Below the pieces are notes generated by a model, which had not been told where the DNA came from, ran no database searches, and was given only the letters and a program-made list of their open reading frames with translations. Shown one piece after another: positions 5,181 to 24,827 of a stretch of 64,000 nt of DNA (its first letter is position 1; each line of letters opens with the position of its first letter). The DNA lies in NCBI GenBank assembly GCA_022823625.1, contig JAJEHQ010000023.1, positions 62,001 through 126,000 on the forward strand. Direction: 5' to 3'. Made by a program: the position numbers and the translations under genes. Origin of the DNA: Gammaproteobacteria bacterium (GTDB lineage: Bacteria; Pseudomonadota; Gammaproteobacteria; Arenicellales; JAJDZL01).

Positions 5181-5490
5181 TGCTAACACCTTTAGAAAAC
5201 TAATGAATAGTCTTTGGGTTTGACAAGATTGCAAAGCGGTGCGGAACTTCCAAGTACCATAGTGTGCCTATGGCACTCATCAGTTTGTCTAGAGCAGATT
5301 GGGCAGGCACAAAAAAAGCAGCAAATTACCCGTCATACCTATCCACAAAAATGAACAGACTTCGGCCGCTTTGCCGCTTGTATTTTCGATAGCTCTGTTG
5401 CCACCAAAGTAACCTCCATCGGTTACTGTTTTCGATTGTAGTAAAAAGCCCCCTTTAAGTCAACAGTTGCAGCCAGATTGAGTAGTATGT
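5181..5490. other. Intergenic region between binding-protein gene and methyltransferase
   Basis: About 310 bases without a convincing gene. It should hold the promoter of the amide-importer operon (minus strand) and the 3' end of the methyltransferase transcript. The only clear structure is the 7-bp stem hairpin at 5408-5427. Confidence 0.5.
5408..5427 (-). terminator. Possible terminator of the methyltransferase transcript
   Basis: AGTAACC (5408-5414) pairs with GGTTACT (5421-5427) across a 6-base loop, about 65 bases past the stop of the minus-strand methyltransferase. Only a short TTT follows on the minus strand, so this is a weak terminator at best. Confidence 0.35.
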
Positions 5491-6174
5491 CTAATTCAAA
5501 CTTAAGTGATCATTGAAGTTTCGGAGTACGAAGCGAGTCCAAGTGACATCGGGGCGATTCAAGAGATCATCTTCAGTGGATTGCTCAATTTCGGCTAACC
5601 CGTATTCCCTGATCAACTTCACCAATTCTTCATCTGGGATGTCCCAGAAGCCTTCAACCACTTCATATGGACCGTGTCGAAGTGTAATGTAGAGCAATCC
5701 TTTTCTCTTGAGCAATCCCAATATTCTTTCAAAAGAAGGCTGACGTTCATGGTAGGGGAGGTGCATCCATACCGCACTCACAAATATCACGTCATAGTGC
5801 TGACCGAGTTTCCGAACTGCTTTCAGTTCAGGCAACTTGTCGTCTACCCAGGAGATTCTGGAATGCTGATGTAATAATTGAGCCCTTGCACGCAATGCAT
5901 TCGACGGCTCAACTGCGATAACTTTGTGCCCAAGTTCAGCCAAACCCGCAGCGTCCCGACCCGAACCGGATCCGATATCAAGAATCGAACAGGGATTCTG
6001 GGGCATGTGGTTTAGTAATGTTGCGTGTAGCTTTTTAAACTTTAGTTGTTCAAACTCCTCAGTGATGAAATCTGCATTCACCTCATACCACTCCTCAACC
6101 GTTTCTGTTGGAATGGGTTGCTTGTTTTCTAAACCCCTATCGGTAGAAGTTGTAGTGAATGTTTTTGAAGTCAT
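5491..6174 (-). CDS. Class I SAM-dependent methyltransferase
   Basis: A 227-residue protein with a Rossmann methyltransferase core. Motif I is ILDIGSGSGRDAAGLAELG, followed by the acidic VIAVEPS at the end of strand 2, and FVSAVWMHLPYHER at motif IV/post. It transfers a methyl group from S-adenosylmethionine to an unknown acceptor. A domain from about 60 to 170 is preceded by an N-terminal extension with EEWYEVNADFITEEFEQLK, common in free-standing small-molecule methyltransferases. It stands alone, divergent from the class V aminotransferase. No substrate can be inferred from the neighbours. Confidence 0.8.
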   Translation of the reverse strand: MTSKTFTTTSTDRGLENKQPIPTETVEEWYEVNADFITEEFEQLKFKKLHATLLNHMPQNPCSILDIGSGSGRDAAGLAELGHKVIAVEPSNALRARAQLLHQHSRISWVDDKLPELKAVRKLGQHYDVIFVSAVWMHLPYHERQPSFERILGLLKRKGLLYITLRHGPYEVVEGFWDIPDEELVKLIREYGLAEIEQSTEDDLLNRPDVTWTRFVLRNFNDHLSLN

Positions 6175-6575
6175 GTTCTGAGATAAAAGCGTATAGGTGT
6201 CAATTCAGATTTCTGAACCATTGAGTTTGTGAGTCGGAGATCATTGAAATTGCTATTTGAAATTAAAGAAGAAATATTTTTTCCAGAATTGCAATATATC
6301 GCACATCTTTGAGCATAGATCATCACACGTTATCCAAACTGAAATCGAATGAGATTTTCATGACCAAACTAATCTACGTTGAGCGCCCAAGCACCCAATT
6401 CAGAATCTGTAAAATATTGGCTTCGCCAAGTAGTTTGAAGTCTTCATTCGTCCTTACGCTTCTGCATAACAAATACTGAGTTGTTGATCGGAGAATGATG
6501 TTCGATTATTGAACTGCTTCAAATTTAACCGCATTCACCGAAATTCATTAACTCGCTAAACCAGAGACATAACTC
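6175..6575. other. Divergent intergenic region
   Basis: About 400 AT-rich bases between divergently transcribed genes, presumably holding both promoters. A 39-codon open frame starting at 6360 has no clear ribosome binding site and no recognisable features. I see no RNA gene and no strong hairpin. Confidence 0.5.
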
Positions 6576-7808
6576 ATGATTCATTCCCACTACGATCTGC
6601 AATATGTCCGCAACCAGTTTCCGAATATCGGAGATTTGGCATTTTTCGAAAATGCGGGTGGCACTTATGTTCCCTCAACTGTTAGCGATCGTATTTATGA
6701 TTACATGCGCCGAAACCAGGTTCAACCAGGATCGTCATATTCCGCTTCAGCTGAAGCCATGGAACGGATTAGCCGTAGCCATCGCCAGCTTGCAGAAATG
6801 ATCAATGCCAAGCCAAGTGAAGTGATTGTCGGGCATTCAACCACGATGAACGTTTATGTTCTGGCCAATGCATTAAGGCCATCACTAACGGCGGGGGACG
6901 AAGTTATCGTCACAAATCTTGATCATGAAGCAAATGTGGGTTCATGGAGAAGATTGGCCGAAAGCGGAATCGTTGTCAAGGAATGGAAAATTGACCGTGA
7001 AACTGCTGAACTAGGTGGACCGCAGGAACTCGAAAAGCTGCTGACTGACCGAACCCGTCTAGTCTGCTGCACCTGGTGTTCCAACATCACCGGAACCATT
7101 AACGACATACAGGCAATTACTGAGCTTGCACATTCAGCTGGAGCACTGGTTTGCGCTGATGCCGTGGCTTACGCGCCACACCGTGCACTGGATTTCAGAA
7201 AATCCAATGTCGACTTTCTACTATTCAGTCTGTACAAACTCTATGGTCCGCACTTGGGTGTACTGTGCGGCAAGCAAAGTATCCTGCTTGACCTCGAGAA
7301 TCAGAATCATTTTTTCTTTACGCGTTCTGCACTACCTCAAAAACTCCAACCTGGCGGTTATTTGCACGAAACAGCGGCATCAATTGAAGGTATCGTGGAA
7401 TACTTCGATCAGGTTTTCTCGCACCATTACAAAAAAAGTGACACTTCAATCAGCGCGCGCTACGCCAAAGTATTCGAATTATTCACTCAGCATGAGGATA
7501 AAGTGGCACGCCCGTTCATGGAGTACTTGAACTCAAAAACCAATGTGCGAATTATCGGAATTCCTGAGATTGATTACACTCGTCGCGTTTCAACCATTTC
7601 ATTCACGGTCGAGGGCCAGCGACACAGCGAAATAGCAGCAAATTTGGGTGAGCAGAATATCGGAATCGGAGTCGGAGACTTTTATGCGAGGCGCTGTATT
7701 GATGCGCTGAACCTGCATCCCGGTGGGGTTGTTCGCGTCAGTATGGTTCACTACAACAGTGAACAGGAAGTGACGCGATTGATCAAAGCCCTGGATCAAG
7801 TGCTGTAA
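6576..7808 (+). CDS. Cysteine desulfurase-like PLP enzyme (class V aminotransferase)
   Basis: A 410-residue fold-type I PLP enzyme of the class V group, close to the uncharacterised 'cysteine desulfurase-like' subfamily. Signs are an N-terminal FFENAGGTYVP, the cofactor region VTNLDHEANVGSW, the aspartate-containing VCADAVAYAPH, and the Schiff-base lysine in SLYKLYGPHLG at about residue 221. A C-terminal small domain ends with GVVRVSMVHYNSEQEV. These enzymes remove or exchange groups on amino acids such as cysteine; this subfamily's substrate is not known to me. No iron-sulfur assembly genes adjoin it, so a dedicated role in cluster assembly is unlikely. It appears monocistronic. Confidence 0.8.
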   Translation: MIHSHYDLQYVRNQFPNIGDLAFFENAGGTYVPSTVSDRIYDYMRRNQVQPGSSYSASAEAMERISRSHRQLAEMINAKPSEVIVGHSTTMNVYVLANALRPSLTAGDEVIVTNLDHEANVGSWRRLAESGIVVKEWKIDRETAELGGPQELEKLLTDRTRLVCCTWCSNITGTINDIQAITELAHSAGALVCADAVAYAPHRALDFRKSNVDFLLFSLYKLYGPHLGVLCGKQSILLDLENQNHFFFTRSALPQKLQPGGYLHETAASIEGIVEYFDQVFSHHYKKSDTSISARYAKVFELFTQHEDKVARPFMEYLNSKTNVRIIGIPEIDYTRRVSTISFTVEGQRHSEIAANLGEQNIGIGVGDFYARRCIDALNLHPGGVVRVSMVHYNSEQEVTRLIKALDQVL

Positions 7809-7875
7809 ATAACCGTTGGTATCAGATCAGTAGTTCACTGCCCTTAGCTGATGAAGTTGAAAATGCAATAGTGAG

Positions 7876-8835
7876 TTAAATTCCTTCCCGAATCTTGCGT
7901 CGCACACTTTCTCGCCAAACAGTCAGAATTCCTGCAGCGGCGATAAACACCATTCCAGCGATTGAATTCGTTGATGGCCACGTATCAAAAAGTGTTTTAC
8001 CCCAAAAGGTCGCGAAAAGAAGGTAGCTGAATTCCATTGGAGCGAGCCAACTGGCATCAGCAGTCTGGTAAGCCCGACTCAAGCATAGGTTTCCGGTGAG
8101 GTTTAGTATCGCTGTAAATCCTGCAACAGCAATCACTATCCAAGTCAGTGTTGGCCATCCGATCGCAACAAACGGCATGCGTTCTTGCAGACTGAGCGGC
8201 AGTGGCGAAATACTCAATACGATGCTTCCAATCAAGTTAAAAGTGAAGAATGTGACCCCGACCGCAAAGGCCATTGCGAGTGTATTTTCAAATCGACATG
8301 CTTTACGAATGGTGAGAATACTGGTGGCATAGAAAAATCCAGCAAAGATTGGAAGGATTTGCCAAGGTGTGAAACCATCTTCCCATGGAGACAATACCAG
8401 AGTTGCTCCTGCAGTACCCAGAAACAGCGCGAACAAGCGCCAGGGGCCGAATTTTTCTCCAAGCACAGGGCCAGCAAGCAAAGTGATAAACAGGGGATAG
8501 GTATATAGCCCTGCACCCATTTGAGTAATTGTCAAAAACGGCGCGCCTGAGAAAAAGCAGAACATTGCGGCAGTCATCAGACAGGCACGAAGATAGACAG
8601 GGCCCGCGCGTATTGGTCTAAGTAAATAAAGCCCGCCACCCACGATCGCTAGAATGACCGCCAAGCTCAAAATTCCGACCGCCCTTACTGACTGAAACTG
8701 CCAGTAAGATGTCAAATCAGCTATGTCCTTGATAAGGCCATCCTGTAAAGCCAAAGCAAACACGCCAGCGAGCAAAAGCCACAGCGCGGTAAATGGGCGA
8801 TCTCTAGTAGGAACTCCGAAAAAAGATGAGAGCAT
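7876..8835 (-). CDS. DMT-superfamily transporter (EamA family)
   Basis: A 319-residue membrane protein with about ten hydrophobic segments arranged as two EamA-type repeats. It has the usual first-repeat feature of a helix followed by FWQ-like residues (TSYWQFQSVRA) and the second-repeat MEFSYLLFATFWGKTLF. Members export amino acids or other small metabolites; the substrate cannot be predicted. It is convergent with the class V aminotransferase gene and separated from the macrodomain gene by 237 bases, so it is probably its own transcription unit. Confidence 0.8.
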   Translation of the reverse strand: MLSSFFGVPTRDRPFTALWLLLAGVFALALQDGLIKDIADLTSYWQFQSVRAVGILSLAVILAIVGGGLYLLRPIRAGPVYLRACLMTAAMFCFFSGAPFLTITQMGAGLYTYPLFITLLAGPVLGEKFGPWRLFALFLGTAGATLVLSPWEDGFTPWQILPIFAGFFYATSILTIRKACRFENTLAMAFAVGVTFFTFNLIGSIVLSISPLPLSLQERMPFVAIGWPTLTWIVIAVAGFTAILNLTGNLCLSRAYQTADASWLAPMEFSYLLFATFWGKTLFDTWPSTNSIAGMVFIAAAGILTVWRESVRRKIREGI

Positions 8836-9072
8836 CGATCACCGATTACCTTCGCTAATTTTTTTCAAATTAGCAGGATTGATTCAGTTTCAGCAGAACT
8901 GATTTTACGGGTGTCGGATGGGCGGTCCTCATTCCCAATTCCAACAAAAATGTGTTTCTGTTTAGAAACCGACAAATTGATGATGTCGCAGGTAAACAAA
9001 AGAATGTTCCTACTGAGCCTCATTTGAGAATTCCATAGTTCCTCTTCGGAAACTTTGTATTTTGAGCGTAGT

Positions 9073-9591
9073 TTACTCGCTTAACTTCAACTCCCTCTGC
9101 CAGATTTCAACCAGTTCAGGAGAAAACAGGTAAAAACTGATTTTGATTCCATTCCATCTCGCGTCCCTACAAATTGCTAGCGAAATTTGAGCTGCTTCAG
9201 AGTAAGGGTATCCGAATACACCGCAAGAGATTGCTGGAAACGCAATAGATATACACTGATGCCTCACTGCCAAAGTAAGCGAATTTCGATACGCCGAAGC
9301 CAGCAAGTTTTCAGGTTCGGGATCAATCGAATATCGCGGACCGACCGTGTGAATTACCCAGCGGGCAGGAAGCCGGCCAGCAGGTGTGATGCGTGCCTCA
9401 CCGACCGGACATCGTACGCCGTTAACTACTGGCACTTGCTTGCAATATTCCAGTAACTCAGGACCGGCAGCCCTATGAATTGCACCATCTACACCTCCTC
9501 CGCCCAGCATTTTCTGATTCGCAGCGTTCACGATTGCGTCTGTGTCTGCTTTGGTGATGTCTCCCTGAACAATTGAAATATTGGAGTTCAT
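9073..9591 (-). CDS. Macrodomain protein, O-acetyl-ADP-ribose deacetylase-like (YmdB/MacroD type)
   Basis: A single macrodomain filling 172 residues. The ADP-ribose-binding signatures are clear: GDITKADTDAIVNAANQ at the start, the glycine loop LGGGGVDGAIHRAAG, and the second phosphate loop SCGVFGYPYSEAA. Family members remove ADP-ribose or the acetyl group of O-acetyl-ADP-ribose. Its start overlaps the stop of the thioesterase gene by 4 bases, making it the third gene of a three-gene operon behind carbonic anhydrase and a hotdog thioesterase. Length matches the family (about 170-180). The cellular target is unknown. Confidence 0.88.
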   Translation of the reverse strand: MNSNISIVQGDITKADTDAIVNAANQKMLGGGGVDGAIHRAAGPELLEYCKQVPVVNGVRCPVGEARITPAGRLPARWVIHTVGPRYSIDPEPENLLASAYRNSLTLAVRHQCISIAFPAISCGVFGYPYSEAAQISLAICRDARWNGIKISFYLFSPELVEIWQRELKLSE

Positions 9592-10037
9592 TCTGATTTG
9601 TCTGCTAGATAACCTGGTAAATTTCTTAGCAGAATTTTGCTACGAACGAAAAGCCCGCTACCACGTCCGATTTCTTTGTCTTGTTCGTTGTAGACCACCG
9701 CTTCAGAAATAATCTGCGATCGATTTTGATTGACAACTTTACCTTCCGCTCGCAAGACCCCTTCAGAAACTGGTCGAGTCAAGTAAGTGTTGAAAGATGA
9801 TGTCAGCATGAAAACTTCTGGTTCCAGTGAATTTGCGGCAAAAAATGCTGCTTCATCCAACATTTTGAAATAGATTGAGCCATGTAGTGCGTCAGCAGTA
9901 TGGTGCATTGAATCTGAGATTGACATACTGACTGTGCAAATGCCATCACCAACAATCATTCTTGGTTTAAGATTTCTATTTATTGGTGCAGCAAGGTAGA
10001 TGCGCTCGAGGCCGCGCCAATGAGCCTCTGAGGTCAT
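9588..10037 (-). CDS. Hotdog-fold thioesterase (PaaI-like)
   Basis: A 149-residue hotdog protein. The central segment HTADALHGSIYFKMLDEAAFFAAN matches the PaaI-type pattern in which an HGG-like turn precedes the long hotdog helix carrying an acidic residue. A later AEGKVVNQNRSQIISEAVVYNEQDKEIGRGSG gives the paired beta strands. Such enzymes hydrolyse acyl-CoA thioesters in the cytoplasm. It overlaps the carbonic anhydrase stop and the macrodomain start by 4 bases each, so the three genes are probably translationally coupled. The acyl substrate is not predictable. Confidence 0.75.
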   Translation of the reverse strand: MTSEAHWRGLERIYLAAPINRNLKPRMIVGDGICTVSMSISDSMHHTADALHGSIYFKMLDEAAFFAANSLEPEVFMLTSSFNTYLTRPVSEGVLRAEGKVVNQNRSQIISEAVVYNEQDKEIGRGSGLFVRSKILLRNLPGYLADKSE

Positions 10038-10654
10038 TCCGGAATCTGGTCAAAGAAATCTACTGCACCTGTCTTGAGGTGATATTCTGCACCTGCAATG
10101 ATGAGTTTTCCATCATTGACCGCCGATTCAAGAATGGTTGAGGTTGCGTACAACTGCCGTGCTGAATGTTTGATATTGGAGCGAATCGCGTTATTGATCA
10201 GTTCATTTTGATTTAAGTTGGAGCCATTCGATGCAAGTGAACTCACAACGGGTGAGATTGCATTGACAATAAACCCAAGGTTTGGAGATAAATTTCCTGA
10301 TGGCTGGCTGATCTCTTGAACGGTTGCTTTAACAGCACCACAGTCGGTATGGCCCAATACAACAACCAGTTCGCAGCCTAATACTGCAACTGCGTACTCC
10401 ACGCTGCCAGTAACGGATTCGTCAGTGATGTTGCCAGCAACTCGAATGACGAACAAATCTCCCAAACCTTGATCAAACACTAATTCTGCCGGTACGCGGG
10501 AGTCCGAACAGCCGACAATTACAGCGAATGGATTTTGACCTTCGGCCAGCTTAAGTCGTCGTTTCGAAGAAATGTTTCCGCCATAGCTTTGTTCAGCAAC
10601 GAAGCGTTGATTTCCAAGAGTTAGTCTATTGAGCGCATACATATCAGAATTCAT
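10034..10654 (-). CDS. Beta-class carbonic anhydrase
   Basis: A 206-residue beta carbonic anhydrase, interconverting CO2 and bicarbonate. The zinc site is complete: CSDSR (Cys and the Asp-Arg dyad) and HTDCGAV (His and Cys ligands), with FVIRVAGN between them. The length is typical of bacterial forms. There is no obvious signal peptide, so it is cytoplasmic. It is the first gene of the three-gene minus-strand operon with the thioesterase and the macrodomain protein. Confidence 0.92.
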   Translation of the reverse strand: MNSDMYALNRLTLGNQRFVAEQSYGGNISSKRRLKLAEGQNPFAVIVGCSDSRVPAELVFDQGLGDLFVIRVAGNITDESVTGSVEYAVAVLGCELVVVLGHTDCGAVKATVQEISQPSGNLSPNLGFIVNAISPVVSSLASNGSNLNQNELINNAIRSNIKHSARQLYATSTILESAVNDGKLIIAGAEYHLKTGAVDFFDQIPE

Positions 10655-10909
10655 TTTGATTGACCTTTGAGTGAACCACTCTCATTTTATTGTCTTCAAA
10701 AGTGTCGGATTCAGAGATTAAAATCCTCGGTTGTCCTCTGTCTCAATCAATAACTGGCAAAGATTAAAACTCAGACATTGTTGTGATGCTTTTCATTTCA
10801 AAAATGTTGTGTCGCGTTACACAACAAGATTTGAATTGGTCAAATTGGACTGATTTGCTTGTCAATCGGAAAACCCGATTAGACAGCAAACATGGGTAAT
10901 TCCAGTGGC

Positions 10910-11338
10910 TCAGTGGGGAGGATTTCGACTATCCTGAATTTGTTTCACCCTTGACGGCCAGGTCGATCGGATATAAGCCAAAATGTCCCAGATTTCATCA
11001 TCCGTCAATGCATGACCAAATCCTTCCATACCACTTTTGATGTCAGTTAAACCTAGAGTCGCAAAGTACGCCAGCCCACCGTATTTTGTGTAATCGAACA
11101 GCATCTGGTTATCGTGGTGCCAGGTGTGCCCGGTCACATCATGTGGCGGAGCTGGCAGTACTCCATCCGGACCCGGTAACTGCCAATCGGGCTGTCCCTC
11201 CAGGTTCACACCGTGGCATGAAGCGCATTGCTGTTCATAATGCCGTTGCCCGTTTACCAAATCACGATTCTCAAGTTCATGGACCGCAAATCCGGCCGCG
11301 GGAAACAGAAGCGAAATTAGAATCAAGAACTTTTTCAT
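10910..11338 (-). CDS. Periplasmic monohaem cytochrome c
   Basis: A 142-residue secreted protein. An N-terminal signal peptide (FLILISLLFPAAGFA, about residues 4-20) precedes one class I cytochrome c domain. CASCHG binds haem, and a methionine in the segment GMEGFGHALTDDEIWDILAYI is the likely sixth ligand; that C-terminal helix pattern is typical of small electron carriers. The insertion DWQLPGPDGVLPAPPHDVTGHTWHH between haem site and ligand recurs in the cytochrome c family often annotated simply as 'cytochrome c'. The partner enzyme is not nearby. Confidence 0.85.
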   Translation of the reverse strand: MKKFLILISLLFPAAGFAVHELENRDLVNGQRHYEQQCASCHGVNLEGQPDWQLPGPDGVLPAPPHDVTGHTWHHDNQMLFDYTKYGGLAYFATLGLTDIKSGMEGFGHALTDDEIWDILAYIRSTWPSRVKQIQDSRNPPH

Positions 11339-11673
11339 GAAGAGATGTTACACAGTATGTGAGTATTAGGTGAATTGTATACGCTCAAATCAAATTATCG
11401 AATAATTTGGTTTCTACTCGAAAATGAAACAACAAATAAATCAGCAGTATAAATTAATTTTCCTCGCCAGAATCAGTGCCGAGACGAATCGTTGGTACAC
11501 AAACAAAGCAAACCTGAAGTGTTGGTGTAATTTAAGAATCTGGAACCCGGCAAAATTCACAATGTGTGAAAAATTCTTCGTTTATTATGGTGTAGTGGTT
11601 TCACTGAATCGCTGTTTGTAGCAATTTGGTAGCCACATGAGCTTTTAATTCCATCAAATGGAGGAGATAAAAA
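11339..11673. other. Regulatory region upstream of the DMFase-like operon
   Basis: 335 AT-rich bases between the divergent cytochrome c gene and the large plus-strand operon. It holds a small perfect palindrome (11556-11570) followed by a TATTAT box (11583-11588). A 65-codon open frame at 11424 has an odd composition and no matching family features, so I do not call it a gene. Confidence 0.5.
11556..11570 (+). promoter_or_regulatory. Candidate operator upstream of the DMFase-like operon
   Basis: TTCACA-ATG-TGTGAA is a perfect inverted repeat with a 3-base spacer. It lies 104 bases before the first gene of the operon. A -10-like TATTAT begins 13 bases downstream, so a repressor bound here would cover the -35 position. 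No regulator gene is adjacent, so the binding protein is unknown. Confidence 0.35.
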
Positions 11674-12705
11674 ATGCATACGATCCTGAAGTTTGCAATT
11701 GCGTTCGTAAGCGCACTGTTTATTTCACAAGCCGCCTATGCGGCCGGTCAACTCAATGTCTACAATTGGGGTGATTACATCAATCCAGAAGTTCTGACTC
11801 GCTTTTCTGAAGAGACAGGTATTAAAGTTTCGCTTGATACCTACGGGACCAACGAAGAAATGCTGGCCAAAATTCAGTCGGGTGCGACTGGATACGACAT
11901 CGTATTTCCGTCCGTACATATGCGCGACATCATGCAGAAGCTGGGGCTTCTACACGATGCCAAGGTCAACACACTGAAAGGTTTTGAAAATATCGATCCG
12001 GCCAATATGATTTCTAAAGTTGATCCGGAAAGTTCCTTCTGCCTGCCCTATGCATGGGGTGCTGTTGGAATTTTCTTCAACAAGGAGGAAGCAGGTGAAC
12101 TCAAAACTTGGGACGATTTTTTTGCGTTGCCTGACAAGGGCAAAAAAATTACCATGCTGGATGATTTGAGGGAAACCATTGGCGTAGCTCTCATCAAGAA
12201 TGGCCATTCAGTCAATTCAACCGATAGCGACGCACTCAAACAAGCCGAAGCCTGGTTGTTGGAACGCAAAGATAAAATTTCCGCATTCAGTTATGACATT
12301 GTGTCACTGGTTCAGGCGGGGGATATCGCCGCGGCTCATTGGTATGTAGGTGCGACACTGTACACGCTGGAAGAACCGGACAAGTTGGGTTTTGTAATTC
12401 CGGAAGAAGGTGCCACTATGTATCAGGAAGATATCTGCGTTCTCAAAGATGCACCAAACAAGGACAGCGCAATCAAATTCTTTGAGTTTTATATGCAGCC
12501 TGAAATTGCCGCACTCAATACATTGCAGCAGGTTAACGGTACCGCTAATGCTCCGGCAAGAGATTTGCTACCGCCAGAACTGAAAGCGAATCCGAATACG
12601 AATCCGCCGCCTGAAGTGGTTGCCAAGCTGCAGATTTTCGAAGATTTAGGCAATGATCTTCGAAAGTACAATCGAGTCTGGACAAAGGTTCGTACAGCGC
12701 AGTAA
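11674..12705 (+). CDS. Polyamine-type ABC transporter substrate-binding protein (PotD/PotF-like)
   Basis: A 343-residue periplasmic binding protein of the spermidine/putrescine class. It has a signal peptide ending AYAAG (near residue 24) and then the hallmark LNVYNWGDYINPEVL at the mature N-terminus. The typical YDIVFPSVHMRD and FVIPEEGATMYQED segments follow. A strong ribosome site, GGAGGAG, precedes the ATG. It is the first gene of an eight-gene operon and, unlike the other five binding-protein genes in the window, has no hairpin after it: the ATPase starts 15 bases later. Given the downstream enzymes, the ligand may be an amide or peptide conjugate of an amine rather than a free polyamine (inference). 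Confidence 0.87.
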   Translation: MHTILKFAIAFVSALFISQAAYAAGQLNVYNWGDYINPEVLTRFSEETGIKVSLDTYGTNEEMLAKIQSGATGYDIVFPSVHMRDIMQKLGLLHDAKVNTLKGFENIDPANMISKVDPESSFCLPYAWGAVGIFFNKEEAGELKTWDDFFALPDKGKKITMLDDLRETIGVALIKNGHSVNSTDSDALKQAEAWLLERKDKISAFSYDIVSLVQAGDIAAAHWYVGATLYTLEEPDKLGFVIPEEGATMYQEDICVLKDAPNKDSAIKFFEFYMQPEIAALNTLQQVNGTANAPARDLLPPELKANPNTNPPPEVVAKLQIFEDLGNDLRKYNRVWTKVRTAQ

Positions 12706-12720
12706 CGGAGACGGAGTTGA

Positions 12721-13815
12721 ATGGACTCCATCGCCGAGGTCAGAGAAGCTGTCAAACGCTTTCCGGCACCCGAAGGCGGTGTCATTACGGCGCTTGACGA
12801 TATTTCGCTAAATATTCAGCAGGGTCAGTTCATGACCCTGCTGGGTCCATCTGGCTGTGGCAAAACGACGCTACTGAGAGCGATCAGCGGCTTCGAGGAC
12901 CTTGATTCGGGAGAGGTGCGAATCGCTGGCGAATCAGTCGCGGGTGTACCACCTTATCGACGTCCTGTCAATACTGTTTTTCAGAACTATGCGCTGTTTC
13001 CTCACTTATCTGTAAGCGGCAATGTAGGTTATGGATTGGATCTGGCCCGTGTGTCAAAAACTGAACGTGAACAACGAGTTGGCGAGGCACTGGAAAGGGT
13101 AAACCTGTCAGGGTTTGATCGACGCAAGCCAGCGCAGCTCTCAGGAGGGCAGCAACAGCGCGTAGCCCTGGCAAGGGCAATCATCAACCAACCAAAGCTT
13201 CTGCTGCTGGACGAACCGCTTTCAGCATTGGATCGCAATTTACGCCAGTCCATGCAGCTCGAACTGAAAAGTCTGCAGCATGATCTAGGCATCTGCTTCC
13301 TGTTCGTCACACATGATCAGGAAGAAGCGCTGACGATGTCAGATCAGGTCGTTGTTCTGGACCACGGTAGAATTGAGCAGATCGGGCCGCCGGAGGAACT
13401 TTATCACCAGCCTGCAACTCGTTTTGTTGCGGGATTTATAGGCGACGGTACACTCTTTTCGGGAACGATCGAAAATGGGGCTGAAGATCCAATCCTTGTA
13501 ACAGAAGATGGCTTGCGTATTTCAGTTGGCATCGGACCATCAGTCGGCACTAAGGCGACGCTCATCATCCGCCCGGAGCACCTGAATATCGCCCCTCAGG
13601 AACCCGACAATTCCTTGGGAATTTTAGACGCTGTGCTGGAGCAATCCGTCTTTCAGGGTGCAACTCGCCAGTATGTCTGTAAACTGGCTAACGGCACTTC
13701 CATTTCAGTTTCGGTAGCAGGATCGGGAGACGAAGCACTAAGCAACGTTAACCCAGGTGATCCCATTCGCCTCGCATACCGCCGGAATACACCTCACCTG
13801 ATACTCGAGTCCTGA
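12721..13815 (+). CDS. Polyamine-type ABC transporter ATP-binding protein (PotA-like)
   Basis: A 364-residue ATPase. The ABC domain shows Walker A GPSGCGKTT, the Q-loop VFQNYALFPHL, signature LSGGQQQRVALARA and Walker B LLLLDEPLSALD. A C-terminal TOBE domain (about residues 285-360) is typical of PotA/MalK-type ATPases. It powers uptake through the two permeases that follow. The start lies 15 bases after the binding-protein stop and the permease gene starts 2 bases after its own stop. Confidence 0.9.
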   Translation: MDSIAEVREAVKRFPAPEGGVITALDDISLNIQQGQFMTLLGPSGCGKTTLLRAISGFEDLDSGEVRIAGESVAGVPPYRRPVNTVFQNYALFPHLSVSGNVGYGLDLARVSKTEREQRVGEALERVNLSGFDRRKPAQLSGGQQQRVALARAIINQPKLLLLDEPLSALDRNLRQSMQLELKSLQHDLGICFLFVTHDQEEALTMSDQVVVLDHGRIEQIGPPEELYHQPATRFVAGFIGDGTLFSGTIENGAEDPILVTEDGLRISVGIGPSVGTKATLIIRPEHLNIAPQEPDNSLGILDAVLEQSVFQGATRQYVCKLANGTSISVSVAGSGDEALSNVNPGDPIRLAYRRNTPHLILES

Positions 13816-13817
13816 AC

Positions 13818-14702
13818 ATGGCTACCAAACGGGATCTTCGTAGCCTCAGTACTCTGTTGACGCCGTCAACTCTGTTCCTCGGAATATTCTTTCTGGGTCC
13901 GCTCGCTGTCATGATCATTTTCAGCTTTCTGGAGCCCGGCGTTTATGGCGGAGTCGTCTGGAATTTTTATCACTGGAATTACGGTCGAATACTTGGCTGG
14001 GCTGACGGGGAGTGGGAAGACTTTGATCCTGTCTACATTGACATTTTCTTAAGGTCTGTACGTCTTGCATTGACCAACGTAGGCATTACACTGCTTGTAT
14101 GTTATCCGGCAGCACTCTGGGTCAGTGGGCTGTCAGCGAGATGGCGGACTTTTGTTGTCTTCATAATTACACTGCCATTTTTCGTAAGTCTGGTCGTGCG
14201 CCTGTTCTGCTGGGTGCTAATATTGCGGCCGAGCGGATTCCTGAGCACCTCACTAATGGGTCTTGGCATCATCTCAGAACCCATTGACATCATTTACACA
14301 GAAACCGCGGTATTGATTGGAATGGCCTATATCTTGCTGCCATTCATGTTTTTGCCGCTTTATGCTAGCATCGAAAAACTCGATCATTCACTGCTGGAGG
14401 CCTCTGCTGATTTAGGCGCAAATCCATTTCAGACTTTCTGGCGAGTCATTCTGCCTTGTACACTTCCCGGGATTGCAGCCGGAGCGGTACTGGTGTTTAT
14501 CCCTAGTCTTGGCAACTTCATTGTTCCAGATCTGCTCGGTGGAGCGAAAGTGATGATGATCGGAAATCTGATTGAGCAGCAGTTTCTGTCAGCGCGTAAC
14601 TGGCCCTTTGGTTCGGCGCTTTCTGTCATGATCATGTTGGTCATGTTCATGTTGATTGTGTTTTATCTCAGGCGCATCGGTCGTTCGGAGATTGTCAGAT
14701 GA
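13818..14702 (+). CDS. Polyamine-type ABC transporter permease (PotB-like)
   Basis: A 294-residue inner-membrane permease with six main hydrophobic segments. The ATPase-docking EAA loop reads EASADLGANPFQTFWRVILP, as in PotB/PotH proteins. An N-terminal periplasmic loop with YGRILGWADGEWEDFDP is also usual for this class. Its stop overlaps the start of the next permease gene by 4 bases (ATGA), so the two subunits are translationally coupled and probably form a heterodimer. Confidence 0.88.
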   Translation: MATKRDLRSLSTLLTPSTLFLGIFFLGPLAVMIIFSFLEPGVYGGVVWNFYHWNYGRILGWADGEWEDFDPVYIDIFLRSVRLALTNVGITLLVCYPAALWVSGLSARWRTFVVFIITLPFFVSLVVRLFCWVLILRPSGFLSTSLMGLGIISEPIDIIYTETAVLIGMAYILLPFMFLPLYASIEKLDHSLLEASADLGANPFQTFWRVILPCTLPGIAAGAVLVFIPSLGNFIVPDLLGGAKVMMIGNLIEQQFLSARNWPFGSALSVMIMLVMFMLIVFYLRRIGRSEIVR

Positions 14703-15520
14703 AACACCCGTGGCTCAAACGTTTACTGTCCCTGCACGGTCTTCTGTTTCTGGCCTTTGTCTACGCGCCGATCATTATTGTGGTTGTTTACTCTTTCAAC
14801 AGCCATCCGGTCAACATGATGGTGTGGAAGGACTTTACCTTCGACTGGTACCTGTCAATTTTTGGCAATCCTACAAAACTCACTGAACAGACTCTTTACG
14901 TCGAATCTACAGATCAACTTCTGTCAGCGGTCAAAAACAGCCTGACTGTTGCCGTAACGACGACCACATTTGCCACCATCGTTGGAACTGCCACAGCACT
15001 TGCGATTTATCGATATCACTTCAAGCTTAAGCCTTTCTACCAAGGTCTGCTGTATATGCCGATGGTCATGCCTGACATCGTGTTGGGTATTGCATTGCTG
15101 GTGTTCTTCATCAACTTTGGTGTAAAGCTTGGATTGATGTCGATCATCATCGGTCACTGTACATTTTTGATTTCTTATGTTTTTGTTGTCGTCAGTGCCC
15201 GACTGGCAGGTATGGATAGCACACTGGAGGAAGCCTCAGCAGATCTGGGAGCCAATCCTTGGGCTACATTTCGGCGCGTAACCTTGCCGCAAATTCTGCC
15301 GGGTATTGTGGGCGGAGCGCTGTTAGCCTTCATCATTTCAATGGATGATCTGGTAATTACCTATTTCATTGCTGGAGTTGACTCAACAACGCTTCCGGTA
15401 TTTATCTACGGCATGCTACGGCGCGGTGTAAAACCGGAAATCAATGCAATAGCTACACTCATGCTGCTTTTTTCCTTTGCAATAGCTGCACTGGGGCTTT
15501 ACTTTAGAAGACGAAATTAA
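14699..15520 (+). CDS. Polyamine-type ABC transporter permease (PotC-like)
   Basis: A 273-residue permease with six hydrophobic segments and the EAA loop EEASADLGANPWATFRRVTLP. It starts with a short cytoplasmic leader and the first helix LLFLAFVYAPIIIVVVYSF, as in PotC/PotI. It completes the importer with the PotB-like subunit. The next gene, an S58 peptidase, begins 29 bases downstream, so the transporter and the enzymes that follow very likely share one transcript. Confidence 0.88.
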   Translation: MKHPWLKRLLSLHGLLFLAFVYAPIIIVVVYSFNSHPVNMMVWKDFTFDWYLSIFGNPTKLTEQTLYVESTDQLLSAVKNSLTVAVTTTTFATIVGTATALAIYRYHFKLKPFYQGLLYMPMVMPDIVLGIALLVFFINFGVKLGLMSIIIGHCTFLISYVFVVVSARLAGMDSTLEEASADLGANPWATFRRVTLPQILPGIVGGALLAFIISMDDLVITYFIAGVDSTTLPVFIYGMLRRGVKPEINAIATLMLLFSFAIAALGLYFRRRN

Positions 15521-15549
15521 TCAAACACCAACCACTGACGTACTGAACG

Positions 15550-16632
15550 ATGAAAAGACGAGGACGAGAACTTGGGCTGCCTTTCCCAGGTCGAACCGGA
15601 GAGCACAATGCCATTACGGATGTTCCAGGTGTGGAAGTTGGATTTTGCACCCGAATTGAAGGGAATGGACCGCTGGTTCAGGGAGAGGGTCCCATAAGAA
15701 CGGGTGTAACCGCAATTCTGCCCCTTGGACGAATTTCCGAACCTCAGCCGGTGTGGGCCGGTATGTATGCACTGAACGGTAACGGTGAAATGACTGGTAC
15801 GCACTGGATTCGGGATGGCGGTTACTTTGTTGGCCCAATCTGTATCACCAACACTCACAGTGTTGGCATTGTTCACCATGCGGCGGTGAGGTGGATGATT
15901 CGAAACTATGAGGAAGCGTGGCAATCGGAACACCTTTGGTCGATGCCCGTGGTAGCGGAAACATACGACGGCGTGTTGAATGACATTAATGGACAGCATC
16001 TCACAGAAGATGACGCGCTTAAAGCACTGAATAATGCGAAACCAGGACCTGTGGATGAGGGTAACGTTGGCGGTGGAACCGGAATGATCTGCTATGAGTT
16101 TAAGGGTGGTACCGGCACTTCTTCACGATGTTTGGAAGTTGACGGTGAAGAGTTTGTAATTGGCGCACTGGTTCAAGCCAATCATGGCGTGCGACCCTGG
16201 CTTACGGTTTTAGGCAGACAGGTCGGGAAATCCATGACGGAAGATCGATTGATGGATGAGGAACACGGATCGATCATCGTGATGCTCGGTACTAACTTAC
16301 CGATGGCTCCACATCAATTACAGCGATTGGCGAAGCGAGCTGCGATTGGTATTGGCCGTGGCGGTACGCCCGGTGGTAACAACTCAGGTGATATCTTTCT
16401 TGCTTTCAGTTCTGCCAATCGAGGACCGATACCACAACTGGCGTCTGGCAGACGGCAATTGGAAGTCATTAACGATGAATTGTTTGATCCAATTTATATG
16501 GCGGCAACCGAATCGATTGAAGAGTCCATCATCAATGCGATTCTGGCGGCCGAAGACATGTCGACCTTACGTCCTCCGGGACTAACGTGTCGTGCAATTG
16601 ATCACGAACGGCTACTTGAGTTTTTCCAATAG
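15550..16632 (+). CDS. P1/S58-family peptidase (DmpA/BapA-like aminopeptidase)
   Basis: A 360-residue member of the self-cleaving DmpA/BapA family, which removes N-terminal D-, L- or beta-amino acids from short peptides and amides. The N-terminus ITDVPGVEVG and the segments GGYFVGPICITNTHSVG and VDEGNVGGGTGM are family hallmarks. The likely autoproteolysis site and nucleophile is Asn278-Ser279 in GGNNSGDIF. No signal peptide is visible, so it acts in the cytoplasm on material brought in by the importer just upstream. The next gene, an aminotransferase, starts 11 bases downstream. The family call is strong; the substrate is unknown. Confidence 0.88.
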   Translation: MKRRGRELGLPFPGRTGEHNAITDVPGVEVGFCTRIEGNGPLVQGEGPIRTGVTAILPLGRISEPQPVWAGMYALNGNGEMTGTHWIRDGGYFVGPICITNTHSVGIVHHAAVRWMIRNYEEAWQSEHLWSMPVVAETYDGVLNDINGQHLTEDDALKALNNAKPGPVDEGNVGGGTGMICYEFKGGTGTSSRCLEVDGEEFVIGALVQANHGVRPWLTVLGRQVGKSMTEDRLMDEEHGSIIVMLGTNLPMAPHQLQRLAKRAAIGIGRGGTPGGNNSGDIFLAFSSANRGPIPQLASGRRQLEVINDELFDPIYMAATESIEESIINAILAAEDMSTLRPPGLTCRAIDHERLLEFFQ

Positions 16633-16643
16633 AGAAGAAAAAA

Positions 16644-18023
16644 ATGAATTTTGATTTCAATGCAGATTCCGCTTCGTGGGAAGCAAGGGACCTCAAATCG
16701 GTATTACACGGGTTCACTCACCTTGGAACCCTTCACGAGAAGGGTCCGTCCGTCATGGCACGCGGGGAGGGGATTTACGTCATCGATTCTCACGGCAAGC
16801 GCTATCTAGAAGCCAACTCAGGTCTATGGAACATGGTTCTAGGATTTGATCATCCGTCTCTGATAGAAGCGGCCTGTGACCAATACAGAAAATTTCCAAC
16901 CTATCATGCATTTTTCGGACGAATTTCTGAGCCAGCCATAGCACTTTCGGAAAAATTGATTGAAATCGCCCCTGTACCAATGAGTAAGGCGTTTTTCACG
17001 AATTCCGGATCCGAAGCAAACGATACAGCAGTGAAAATGCTGTGGATGATTCACCGCGGTCTAGGTAATCCACAGCGTCGCAAGATTATTTCAAGAGTCA
17101 ACGCTTATCACGGTGTCACTGGAATCACGGCGAGCATGACTGGCAAGGACTATGTCGGAGCTTTTGGACTTCCGCTTGATGACTTTCTGTTTACTGATTG
17201 TCCCCACCATTGGCGGTTTGCAAATGATGATGAAAGCGAACTCGAATTTTCAGGCCGTTGTGTTGAAAATCTGGACGCACTGATTGAAGCGGAGAGACCT
17301 GACACCATTGCCGGTTTTATTGCAGAACCCGTCATGGGAGCAGGTGGAGTCATTCCACCTCCCAAAGGGTATTTTGAAGCCATTCAGAATGTACTCAGAA
17401 AACACGATATTCCGTTGATCGTGGATGAAGTGATTTGCGGGTTCGGGCGCACTGGGCGTGTCTGGGGCTGTCAGACCTACAACATTGAACCTGACATCCT
17501 GATCGCGTCAAAGTGCATCACTGCAGGTTACTTTCCGATGGGCGCGATCATGATTTCGGAGTCAATTGCCGACAAGCTCAATCAGGCTAGTGAAGCTTAC
17601 GAAGAATTTCCGCACGGGTTTACAACAGCAGGTCACCCGGTCGGTTGTTCGATTGCCCTGAAAGCGATTGAAATTATTCTGGAACAGGGTGTACTGGATA
17701 ACGTTGTGGATGTTGCGCCTCATTTTCTGCATAGGTTGGAAGAATTTGCTTCCCATCTGCATATTGGTGAGGCACGCGGAGTCGGGTTGATGGGTGCTCT
17801 GGAGTTGGTAAAGGACAAGCAGTTGAAATCACCTTTTCCGCCTGAACAGCCCGTTGCAGAACAGATTGCTAATGTTGCTTCGGACAATGGTTTGATTTGC
17901 CGACCGGTTGGACAGTCCATTGTTGTTGCACCGCCTTTTGTCATCACACGGGATCAAATTGACGAGCTATTCAACAAGCTCCAATTCACCATCGATCAGG
18001 TTTTTGATTCTGTGGAGGATTGA
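16644..18023 (+). CDS. Class III (omega-amino acid type) aminotransferase
   Basis: A 459-residue PLP-dependent class III aminotransferase, moving an amino group between an amine or beta/omega-amino acid and an alpha-keto acid. Visible marks are the cofactor-binding NSGSEANDTAVK, the SRVNAYHGVTG segment, the aspartate in PLIVDEVICGFGRTG and the Schiff-base Lys290 in ASKCITAGYFPMGA. Length fits the family (430-470). It lies between the S58 peptidase and the DMFase-like genes, suggesting that it deaminates the amine or amino acid released by hydrolysis. Polyamine and beta-alanine aminotransferases belong to this class, so the fit with the importer is reasonable but unproven. Confidence 0.88.
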   Translation: MNFDFNADSASWEARDLKSVLHGFTHLGTLHEKGPSVMARGEGIYVIDSHGKRYLEANSGLWNMVLGFDHPSLIEAACDQYRKFPTYHAFFGRISEPAIALSEKLIEIAPVPMSKAFFTNSGSEANDTAVKMLWMIHRGLGNPQRRKIISRVNAYHGVTGITASMTGKDYVGAFGLPLDDFLFTDCPHHWRFANDDESELEFSGRCVENLDALIEAERPDTIAGFIAEPVMGAGGVIPPPKGYFEAIQNVLRKHDIPLIVDEVICGFGRTGRVWGCQTYNIEPDILIASKCITAGYFPMGAIMISESIADKLNQASEAYEEFPHGFTTAGHPVGCSIALKAIEIILEQGVLDNVVDVAPHFLHRLEEFASHLHIGEARGVGLMGALELVKDKQLKSPFPPEQPVAEQIANVASDNGLICRPVGQSIVVAPPFVITRDQIDELFNKLQFTIDQVFDSVED

Positions 18024-18026
18024 TTG

Positions 18027-18344
18027 ATGTCAAGATATCGATTGTCTGATGAGGATCTCAAGTACGCAGCAGAATTCAAGGCAGATCCACTCGGTACACC
18101 GAGTCCCGGACTGCAAAGAGTCCTGAATCTCCTGCGCGGTGGACCGAAAAAGGGGAAATACGTTCTGATTGTCAAGGAACCTTTCCGTCGCTGGAATCTG
18201 GGACGCATGCCAGAGTCGCGCGGCGAGCCCATAGAAATTATCAGCGAAGTCGAGTACACCGATCTTGCCGAAGCTGAGTGGGACGTTTTCAAACGCAGGT
18301 GGAAAGCGAGTACGGGTCAGGATCTCGATCAGGAGTTGGCATGA
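18027..18344 (+). CDS. N,N-dimethylformamidase small (alpha) subunit-like protein
   Basis: A 105-residue protein that aligns by eye with the C-terminal three quarters of the DMFase alpha subunit (DmfA1, about 130 residues). Shared elements in order are a DP-G-PSPGLQRV segment, a basic GKY with hydrophobic residues, an arginine-rich turn, and a final acidic helix ending in RRW-x-D-x-ELA. In known enzymes this subunit packs on the catalytic large subunit. The ATG at 18027 is 3 bases after the aminotransferase stop, with GGAGGA upstream. Its stop overlaps the large-subunit start by 4 bases. Homology is inferred from a remembered alignment and from context. Confidence 0.65.
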   Translation: MSRYRLSDEDLKYAAEFKADPLGTPSPGLQRVLNLLRGGPKKGKYVLIVKEPFRRWNLGRMPESRGEPIEIISEVEYTDLAEAEWDVFKRRWKASTGQDLDQELA

Positions 18345-20572
18345 CTCGCATCCTGGCTTACACCGATCAGATCAGTTCTGCACCGGGTGGGTCAATTCAG
18401 GTTAAGGTGAGTTGTGATGGTCTGGACCAATACGATGCCAGACTGATTCGAGTCATTCAAGGTGATGTCAACCCGTCAGGTCCGGGTTATCGAGAAGAAG
18501 TCGTTGACCTCGATCTTGGCGGCCCAAATCCAGCTCGGTTTCAACCCATCCATGCAGGGTCCTATGGCATCGCCGAAAGTGCGCCACCGCTAGATATGGG
18601 CAAGTCATTTAGCATGCAAGCGCTAATTTGGCCAACTTTGCCGGGTCGCGGTCCACAAACGATCTTGAGCTACGAGGATCCGAATTCGAGTGCAGCATTC
18701 AGACTCTACCTGGACGCTGCAGGTGCGCTCGCTTTTCAAGTGACCGAATCGCAAGGCGATAGCGATAGCATTTCAACAGGATCACCGCTCTTCGGCCAGC
18801 GATGGTATCTGGCAAGTGGAGAATATGACGTTGTCTCACGAACGCTGACGGTTATTCAAGTGCCGCTGATTTCTACCCCGCAGGCACAAGACAGACTCAA
18901 AGATTCGAAAGTCGTCACTATAGGTACAGCTAAAGCGGGGCCTGATGGAGTCATCATGATCGCTGCCCACAGCGGGTCTGAACGTCCAGCAGTTGGGCAC
19001 TTCAATGGTCGCATTGAAGCACCAAAACTCTTTGCGCGATTGTTGGATGAGCACGAAAAAGTGAATCCTGACACTGCAAAATCTCAAGATCTGATTGCCG
19101 CGTGGGATTTTTCTGTTGGCATATCAACAGACACGATTATTGATGTTTCAGACAATCAGCTAAACGGACGCTTGGTTAACCTTCCCGCCCGTGGAGTCAC
19201 CGGTTACTTGTGGAATGGTGATGAACACTGCTGGAAGAATAATTTCGATCACTATGCGGCAATCCATTTTCATGATGACGATCTCTACGACTGTGAATGG
19301 GAAACCGATTTTGAAGTTAAACTGCCCGATAGTCTGAATAGTGGAGTTTATGCTGTTCATCTGCAAAGCGGGTCTGAGGTGTACTACACCCCTTTTGCAG
19401 TTCGCCCGCCACGCGGTAACCGATCTGCACCAGTCGCATTCATCCTGCCAACTGCTAGCTACATGGCTTATGCGAACAATCGAATTGGCATTGATGTACC
19501 AGAAACTGAAATTGTAACGGGACGCCTGGTCCAGATGAATCCGATCGATCTCTTTATGCAAACTCACCCCGAAATAGGGTTGTCTTTCTACGATGTGCAC
19601 AATGATGGCAGTGGCGTTTACTACTCATCACGTCTCAGACCCATTGTTCAAATGCAACCCAAGCAGATCGGACACTTGGGAGGTGTCGGTTCGAATCTGT
19701 GGCAATTTAACGCAGATACCCATATTTTGGCTTGGCTTGAGCAGCTCGAACAGCCGTTTGATGTTATCACAGACGAAGATCTAGAAAAAGAAGGTAGCCA
19801 GGTACTAGATGGCTATAGGGCGGTAATCACGGGTACCCACCCAGAGTATTACTCGGTAGGGATGCTGGACAGTCTTCAGTCGTACCTTAATGCTGGCGGT
19901 CGTCTGATGTATCTTGGCGGTAACGGTTTTTACTGGAGGGTGAGTTTTCATCCGACGCTTCCAGGAGTTATTGAGTGTAGAAAATCAGAAGACGGCATTC
20001 GCGTGTATCCGCCTCCACCTGGTGAGTTTTATGCCAGTTTTACAGGCGAGTACACAGGACTTTGGCGCCGAAACGGTCGAGCACCGAATGAGTTGGTAGG
20101 CATCGGTATGGTTTCGCAGGGGTTTGATTGCTCGTCGCCATTCATTCTGACAGAAGCCAGCCGCGACGCGCGAGTTTCTTTTATTTTTGACGGAGTCGAA
20201 GGCCCAGTTGTCGGCGATTACGGCTTGTCCGGTGGCGGTGCAGCTGGTCTGGAGCTAGATGCAACAAACCATGCGTGGGGTACACCACCCAATACACTGG
20301 TACTGGCAACCTCAAAGCGCCATTCAGATCTCTATTTGATGACACCTGAAGACATGGATGACCCGGCCCCGGGTTTAGGCGGGACAGAGGCGGAGATTAT
20401 TCGAGCGGAGATGGTGTTTTTCGAGACCCCTAAAGGCGGTGCTGTATTTTCGACCGGCTCCATTGCCTGGTGTGGCAGTCTTTCTCACATCAACTACAGT
20501 AACGATGTTGCACGAATAACAGGCAATGTGCTAAAGCGTTTTCTTGACCCAACCCCTTTTCCAGTCATGTAA
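18341..20572 (+). CDS. N,N-dimethylformamidase large (beta) subunit-like protein
   Basis: 743 residues, close to the DMFase beta subunit (about 760). An N-terminal beta-rich part contains a LamG/ConA-like domain (about residues 75-260, with FSMQALIWPTLPG). The C-terminal half has a class I glutamine-amidotransferase-like fold. Tyr377 (SYMAYAN), Tyr417 (SFYDVHN) and Glu502 (THPEYYS) lie in the order, and at roughly the spacing, I recall for the two-Tyr/one-Glu iron site of the Paracoccus enzyme; this mapping is inference. The known enzyme splits dimethylformamide to dimethylamine and formate. I chose ATG at 18341 because it overlaps the alpha stop as ATGA and has AGGAG upstream. The true substrate may be another amide. 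Confidence 0.75.
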   Translation: MTRILAYTDQISSAPGGSIQVKVSCDGLDQYDARLIRVIQGDVNPSGPGYREEVVDLDLGGPNPARFQPIHAGSYGIAESAPPLDMGKSFSMQALIWPTLPGRGPQTILSYEDPNSSAAFRLYLDAAGALAFQVTESQGDSDSISTGSPLFGQRWYLASGEYDVVSRTLTVIQVPLISTPQAQDRLKDSKVVTIGTAKAGPDGVIMIAAHSGSERPAVGHFNGRIEAPKLFARLLDEHEKVNPDTAKSQDLIAAWDFSVGISTDTIIDVSDNQLNGRLVNLPARGVTGYLWNGDEHCWKNNFDHYAAIHFHDDDLYDCEWETDFEVKLPDSLNSGVYAVHLQSGSEVYYTPFAVRPPRGNRSAPVAFILPTASYMAYANNRIGIDVPETEIVTGRLVQMNPIDLFMQTHPEIGLSFYDVHNDGSGVYYSSRLRPIVQMQPKQIGHLGGVGSNLWQFNADTHILAWLEQLEQPFDVITDEDLEKEGSQVLDGYRAVITGTHPEYYSVGMLDSLQSYLNAGGRLMYLGGNGFYWRVSFHPTLPGVIECRKSEDGIRVYPPPPGEFYASFTGEYTGLWRRNGRAPNELVGIGMVSQGFDCSSPFILTEASRDARVSFIFDGVEGPVVGDYGLSGGGAAGLELDATNHAWGTPPNTLVLATSKRHSDLYLMTPEDMDDPAPGLGGTEAEIIRAEMVFFETPKGGAVFSTGSIAWCGSLSHINYSNDVARITGNVLKRFLDPTPFPVM

Positions 20573-22394: not shown

Positions 22395-23982
<1,588 letters not shown>

Positions 23983-23990
23983 CAGAATCG

Positions 23991-24827
23991 ATGGAAGTAG
24001 TTAGTGAACACCGATCGTTTGGCGGTGTCCAGGGCATTTATCGACATGAGTCGCAATGCACCGGTACACCCATGCAGTTTTCGGTCTATTTGCCACCGGC
24101 AGCTTCCGATTCACAATGTTCGGTCTTGTGGTTTCTGTCTGGGCTGACTTGTACAGAAGAGAACTTTACCGTCAAGGCTGGCGCTCAACAGTTTGCATCT
24201 CGCCAAAACCTGATTGTAGTCGCACCGGATACCAGTCCCCGCGGCGCAGGCATCTCAGGAGAGGACGACACCTACGACTTTGGTACCGGTGCTGGATTCT
24301 ATGTTGACGCGACGGAATCGCCCTGGTCACGCAACTACCAGATGTACACCTACATTACCCGTGAGCTGCAAGATCTGGTCATTTCAAATTTTCCCGCCAA
24401 CCCTTCCCGGCAGGGCATAACGGGGCATTCCATGGGTGGGCATGGAGCGTTGACAATTGGCCTTAAGAACCCGAACCTGTTTCACTCAATATCTGCGTTT
24501 GCACCGATCTGTGCCCCAACCCAATGCCCGTGGGGTCAAAAGGCATTGAGCGGATATTTGGGACAGAATCAGACTCTGTGGTCTGACTATGATGCGACCG
24601 AACTGGTTAAACGCGGATTTAGGAGCCAAACCATTCTGGTCGATCAAGGTGAGGCAGACGGCTTTCTGGAAGAGCAGTTGAAACCCGAAGTTCTTTCCGC
24701 GGCCTGTGAAGCAGCGGGCCAGTCCTTGCAGCTTCGCATGCAGCCAGGTTATGACCACAGCTACTATTTCATTTCGAGTTTTATTGAAGACCACATTGAG
24801 TTTCACGCGACGAAACTGAATGGATAG
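23991..24827 (+). CDS. fghA: S-formylglutathione hydrolase
   Basis: A 278-residue esterase-D family hydrolase that converts S-formylglutathione to formate and glutathione. The nucleophile elbow is GHSMGGHGAL (Ser near residue 147). The family segments LSGLTCTEENF, APDTSPRGAGI and the histidine in QPGYDHSYYFI are all present, and length matches (about 280). It starts 8 bases after the frmA stop, so the two form one operon for oxidising formaldehyde to formate. No transcription factor gene adjoins. Confidence 0.95.
   Translation: MEVVSEHRSFGGVQGIYRHESQCTGTPMQFSVYLPPAASDSQCSVLWFLSGLTCTEENFTVKAGAQQFASRQNLIVVAPDTSPRGAGISGEDDTYDFGTGAGFYVDATESPWSRNYQMYTYITRELQDLVISNFPANPSRQGITGHSMGGHGALTIGLKNPNLFHSISAFAPICAPTQCPWGQKALSGYLGQNQTLWSDYDATELVKRGFRSQTILVDQGEADGFLEEQLKPEVLSAACEAAGQSLQLRMQPGYDHSYYFISSFIEDHIEFHATKLNG

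Follow-up and report, generated by a model that had tools for sequence, protein, structure and literature searches.

A polyamine-type importer, an S58 peptidase, an amine transaminase and a two-subunit enzyme of the N,N-dimethylformamidase (DMFase) family are encoded together by an eight-gene operon of a Gammaproteobacteria bacterium of the order Arenicellales. The operon occupies positions 11674-20572 on the plus strand of the window, the whole stretch of 64,000 nucleotides that was analysed, which lies on contig C41 of the 3.18-Mb assembly GCA_022823625.1. The sequences make it reasonably probable that the operon is catabolic and serves a small cationic amide or peptide, which would be taken up, hydrolysed and then deaminated in a pyruvate-dependent step. 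The gene families are each known; their combination, and the DMFase-type subfamily with an aspartate at the pocket gate (the Asp-gate subfamily), appear to be undescribed.

Conservation and linkage of the gene set

The genes follow one another in the order binding protein, ATPase, two permeases, S58 peptidase, class III aminotransferase, small subunit and large subunit, with intergenic gaps of +15, +2, -4, +29, +11, +3 and -4 bases. A preliminary description of this DNA had reported eight genes, spaced by -4 to 29 bases, and had assigned them to families. All eight were present, co-directional and tightly packed, and the families were confirmed by Pfam, NCBIfam and PDB searches. The operon start, which had been placed at 11556, was corrected, as the binding protein gene begins at 11674 and the interval 11556-11673 is non-coding leader. 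The operon is flanked by minus-strand genes, upstream by one for a cytochrome c and downstream by one that resembles acyl-CoA ligase genes.

The preliminary description had named a complete lack of co-occurrence of DMFase-like genes with the importer in other genomes as evidence against its model; the gene set was conserved in other genomes, and the two do co-occur there. A DMFA2_C gene was present in 41 of the 109 genomes of the order. The eight-gene order of the window was found again in three genomes of the same genus (G043, G044 and G046) and in G065 of family f9. A contig of family f8 (L180, from G048) carries the importer, S58, transaminase and small subunit genes and the start of the large subunit gene in the same order, and ends inside the latter. 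For two genomes of family f3 (G022 and G024), the importer, S58 and transaminase genes are divergent from the two DMFase-like genes. The S58, transaminase and both subunit genes were present on a contig of a Kiloniellaceae metagenome-assembled genome (L080), and a rearranged set was found on plasmids of Pseudorhizobium flavum and Rhodobacteraceae M382, and in Shinella, Chelativorans, Pseudotabrizicola and others. Chance does not explain the arrangement, given four further genomes of the order with an identical gene order, the contig-truncated set of L180, and genes that stay linked in Alphaproteobacteria even when rearranged.

A FastTree phylogeny of 121 large subunits placed the window protein in a clade of 23 rows with an SH-like support of 99. 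A transaminase of the Vibrio fluvialis type was encoded within about 9.3 kb of the DMFase-like genes in 22 of these 23 rows (no more than 9 kb away in 21, and roughly 9.2 kb away in L074 according to its annotation), and in one of the 98 rows outside the clade (L119, 40% identity); the rows are related, and these linkage counts are not independent events. Transaminase and DMFase-like genes nevertheless stay linked where the genes are arranged in several different ways.

The DMFase-like enzyme and its pocket gate

The large subunit (743 aa; 18341..20572, plus strand) matched PF20254 and, with 527 bits over residues 4-741, the solved DMFase structure 6lvb, and this full-length match settles the predicted fold. 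The small subunit (105 aa; 18027..18344, plus strand) is far less conspicuous: a profile of 14 orthologues matched only the DMFase small subunit 6lvb_B (E=2e-4), and as a single sequence it reached E=0.016 against the same chain. The best reading of the small subunit start is the ATG at 18027, and that of the large subunit is the ATG at 18341, which overlaps the small subunit stop as ATGA and was preferred over a GTG at 18278.

The DMFase iron is held by Y399, Y440 and E521, H519 is essential, and N547 has also been described (PMC7686228). The two-Tyr, one-Glu site maps to Y377, Y417 and E502 of the window protein, and H519 and N547 map to H500 and N528, all kept in 23 of 23 clade members; the iron ligands are invariant across all aligned homologues. 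The gate of the pocket differs. In DMFase, the neighbouring large subunit supplies F693, a constriction that would explain the poor activity on larger amides (PMC7686228). This Phe, said to limit DMFase to small formamides, is absent from the window large subunit, where the equivalent residue is Asp674 (codon 20360..20362, plus strand). The aspartate is invariant in the clade (23/23) and was found in none of the 108 other aligned homologues. The preliminary description was right about the family of this enzyme; as a refinement, it belongs to a distinct subfamily with an Asp pocket gate, so that activity on dimethylformamide itself is not to be assumed. A carboxylate lining the gate suggests a positively charged substrate.

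At four other loci (L147, L154, L155 and L157), several DMFase-family large subunit genes were found in tandem, with one small subunit gene beside the cluster.

The importer

The importer comprises a PotD/PotF-type solute-binding protein (343 aa; 11674..12705), a PotA-type ATP-binding cassette (ABC) transporter ATPase (364 aa; 12721..13815), a PotB-type permease (294 aa; 13818..14702) and a PotC-type permease (273 aa; 14699..15520), all on the plus strand. The ATPase scored above the cut-off of TIGR01187 (368 bits). Both permeases matched PF00528 and scored under the curated cut-offs of the PotB model (248 bits, cut-off 348) and the PotC model (238 bits, cut-off 326). The binding protein matched PF13416 and PDB entries of the PotD/PotF family (147-187 bits), and it also scored under the curated PotD/PotF cut-offs.

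In PotD numbering, the binding protein retains the acids D168, E171 and E257, the last as Glu. Acids at these three positions are ones that we take, from established knowledge of PotD, to bind ammonium groups. The pocket is otherwise changed at Y85H, W229Y, W255Y, Y293N and Q327F, and four of these changes (Y85H, W255Y, Y293N and Q327F) set it apart from the polyamine pocket of PotD. The pattern was common to all close importers of the set, including those of three loci that have the importer and S58 genes only, which differ consistently from the set only at PotD position 229 (Phe for Tyr). Since the amine-binding acids are kept within a pocket pattern of its own that is common to the S58-only loci, the importer ligand is likely to carry a positive charge, to be something other than plain spermidine or putrescine, and to be the same as at those loci.

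A plasmid of Leisingera thetidis (L160, 7903-10062) carries a lone binding protein gene with an S58 gene directly after it and no ABC ATPase or permease genes adjoining.

The S58 peptidase and the transaminase

The S58 enzyme (360 aa; 15550..16632, plus strand) matched PF03576 with 354 bits and is 60% identical to DmpA (1b65), which by family makes it a putative DmpA-type N-terminal-nucleophile aminopeptidase or amidase. Self-cleavage is predicted at Gly240-Ser241 (DmpA G249-S250), and DmpA residues E144, Y146, N218, S288 and D290 are kept as E137, Y139, N211, S279 and D281.

The class III aminotransferase (459 aa; 16644..18023, plus strand) is of the V. fluvialis amine:pyruvate transaminase type. 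It keeps residues F19, L56, W57, F85, R88, Y150, V153, D256, K285 and R415 of the V. fluvialis amine transaminase, and the sole change among the pocket residues checked was L417V. The transaminase match in one genome with the conserved order (G065:C54:4959-6305) has one in-frame TAG, which may reflect assembly error or decay.

A second locus in the same genome

No small subunit was detected at a second operon-like locus (L032; G000 contig C18, 113000-131017), which at 4810-11542 encodes a PAAT-type importer, a class III aminotransferase of HemL-like type and a DMFase-family large subunit. The large subunit scored 607 bits to N-acetyl-(R)-beta-phenylalanine acylase (8HUY), compared with 433 bits to DMFase, and the gate position is Ser or Thr in its clade. 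The window large subunit falls outside that clade and is not closer to the acylase (508 bits) than to DMFase. In two relatives of the same genus (L034 and L036), a DMFase-family gene, an ABC ATPase gene and a gene for the same HemL-like type of aminotransferase occur together. The genome therefore holds two combinations of an importer, a DMFase-family hydrolase and a class III aminotransferase, which belong to different subfamilies.

Leader region and neighbouring genes

The leader and promoter region (11340..11673, plus strand) was 83% identical in the nearest relative over 418 bp, flanks included. Promoter and terminator scans gave no sites beyond shuffle level, and none splits the eight-gene set; an Rfam scan gave no matches. 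A gene for an RpiR-family regulator lies upstream of the importer in relatives (L035:1223-2092, L038:645-1529 and L040:11590-12474, all on the minus strand, and L180:8274-9107), divergent from it in the first three. Neither the 64-kb window nor L033 gave any match to this gene, and the regulator may have been lost or relocated in the lineage of the window.

Downstream of the operon, at 22870-24827, an S-(hydroxymethyl)glutathione dehydrogenase gene and an esterase-family (S-formylglutathione hydrolase-like) gene adjoin each other. Elsewhere, this pair adjoins the operon only in the closest relative.

Proposed pathway and alternative readings

In the proposed pathway, the ABC importer would take in a compound recognised by its ammonium group or groups, and the S58 enzyme would remove an N-terminal amino acid or cut an amide. 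The two-subunit iron enzyme, with its Phe gate replaced by Asp674, would cut a second amide, probably acyl or formyl, in the positively charged substrate, and the transaminase would transfer the primary amine so released to pyruvate, with alanine and an aldehyde or oxo-acid as products. Some alphaproteobacterial clusters add a glutamine synthetase homologue, an aldehyde dehydrogenase, an alanine racemase, a D-amino acid dehydrogenase (DadA) or a Rid protein, as expected for amine degradation with alanine recycling; there, alanine could return to pyruvate via the racemase and the D-amino acid dehydrogenase. The model draws on the conserved gene order and clade-bound linkage, the intact catalytic residues of the three enzymes, the clade-specific Asp, the amine-binding acids of the binding protein and the comparable C18 locus. 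The cationic nature of the substrate, the order of the steps and one common substrate for all the enzymes are what we infer, together with the cutting of amide bonds by the S58 and DMFase-like enzymes in one pathway. The joint pathway of the preliminary description gains from the conservation of the set across families and classes, and is refined by the division of the set into two modules, each of which also occurs alone.

Several observations weigh against a single pathway. The importer and S58 genes were found without the other genes in Shinella zoogloeoides, Pseudomonas aeruginosa RW109 and G108 (L161, L075 and L170). The transaminase and DMFase-like subunit genes were found without that importer or S58 in L085, L086, L103, Rhizobium CB3171 and B. 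vietnamiensis G4. For L085, L086, L103 and the B. vietnamiensis strain, these genes stand by themselves or next to APC or PAAT transporter genes. As each group occurs without the other, the window operon joins two modules, and these could act on different compounds. One clade member (L084) has no V. fluvialis-type transaminase nearby. The glutamine synthetase, aldehyde dehydrogenase and alanine-recycling genes of the alphaproteobacterial clusters are not in the window operon, and the best matches of the genome to the alphaproteobacterial glutamine synthetase homologue were only 26-33% identical. Two independent modules under one promoter, with the importer and S58 enzyme serving small peptides or amino-acid amides and the transaminase and DMFase-like enzyme serving an unrelated amide that enters otherwise, would account for the separate occurrences. 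That explanation is nevertheless rather unlikely, as at least two classes have the modules joined, in several different arrangements, a recurrence hard to expect from coincidence, and in the joined loci of the order, including L180, the S58 gene directly adjoins the transaminase gene.

A gamma-glutamyl variant of the Puu type, in which the DMFase-like enzyme would stand in for PuuD and cleave a gamma-glutamyl amide and the transaminase would stand in for PuuB, would fit a Pot-type importer and the alphaproteobacterial versions of the cluster, which carry an aldehyde dehydrogenase, an N-formylglutamate amidohydrolase-family gene and the glutamine synthetase homologue (182 bits to the gamma-glutamylputrescine synthetase model). 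It is doubtful, as this homologue is far under the curated cut-off of 650 and also under the generic GlnA models, and the window operon has no gamma-glutamylamine synthetase, the low identities given above being the best that the genome offers. A plain operon for the degradation of N,N-dimethylformamide or an alkylformamide was rejected as highly improbable on genomic context and the gate residue, despite the full-length match to Paracoccus DMFase, the presence of a small subunit, the retained iron site and the formaldehyde-handling gene pair downstream. That pair adjoins the operon only in the window and the closest relative, a primary-amine transaminase has no place in dimethylformamide breakdown, F693 is Asp, and the annotated DMFase of pAMI2 (L158), the known dmfA locus, falls outside the clade and has no importer, S58 or transaminase gene in the stretch read. 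A histamine (hin-type) pathway, to which the alphaproteobacterial clusters presumably bear some likeness through their APC permease, aminotransferase, aldehyde dehydrogenase and N-formylglutamate amidohydrolase-family gene, was dropped, as no ring-opening genes were found in the annotated alphaproteobacterial clusters.

Beyond the window operon, the data raise the prospect of an undescribed pathway spread across Gamma-, Alpha- and Betaproteobacteria, in which Asp-gate DMFase-type enzymes and a V. fluvialis-type transaminase would jointly process cationic amides, joined in some branches by a dedicated importer and a DmpA-type peptidase; the chances that it exists in this form appear about even. 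No paper on the gene set or the Asp-gate subfamily was found in the dimethylformamidase, DMFase and S58 literature searched, many subscription journals being outside the search, and none on 8HUY within the same scope. If true, the pathway would explain what three types of enzyme, so far familiar chiefly from biocatalysis or the breakdown of pollutants, do in nature. To our knowledge, it appears unsettled which substrates DmpA-type peptidases, V. fluvialis-type amine transaminases and most DMFase-family proteins act on naturally, and the papers searched gave no evidence to the contrary. With a conserved set that joins the three enzymes, and an Asp that marks the clade at the very pocket position held to restrict DMFase, the substrate question becomes testable, and knowing what the importer binds might reveal what all three enzymes act on.

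Comparison with known systems

The closest characterised counterpart of the two-subunit enzyme is the N,N-dimethylformamidase of Paracoccus (PDB 6LVB; PMC7686228), which it resembles along the full length of the large subunit, in the iron ligands and the H519 and N547 equivalents, and in having a homologous small subunit. It differs from that enzyme in Asp674 for F693, in the clade-specific residues Q439, C546, R381 and P558, and in being encoded among importer, S58 and transaminase genes. The N-acetyl-(R)-beta-phenylalanine acylase, by its name a hydrolase of the N-acyl bond of a beta-amino acid and deposited as a single kind of chain, is also a homologue of the window large subunit, and is nearer to the C18 paralogue. 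The C18 locus itself is the counterpart of the window operon within the genome, with a PAAT-type importer, a HemL-like aminotransferase and an acylase-like large subunit in place of the types found in the window.

The S58 enzyme keeps the self-cleavage and catalytic residues of DmpA of Ochrobactrum anthropi (PDB 1B65), and differs in being encoded alongside a Pot-type importer and the DMFase-like subunits. The nearest known transaminases are the amine:pyruvate enzymes of V. fluvialis and Paracoccus denitrificans; the window transaminase is 57% identical to the V. fluvialis enzyme and retains the active-site residues. A close Paracoccus relative adjoins unrelated genes, whereas the transaminases of the window's clade are tied to DMFase-like genes. 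The importer has the same subunit make-up as the Pot spermidine/putrescine importers and the acids of PotD positions 168, 171 and 257 (as Glu), and its altered pocket residues lead to the expectation of a different ligand.

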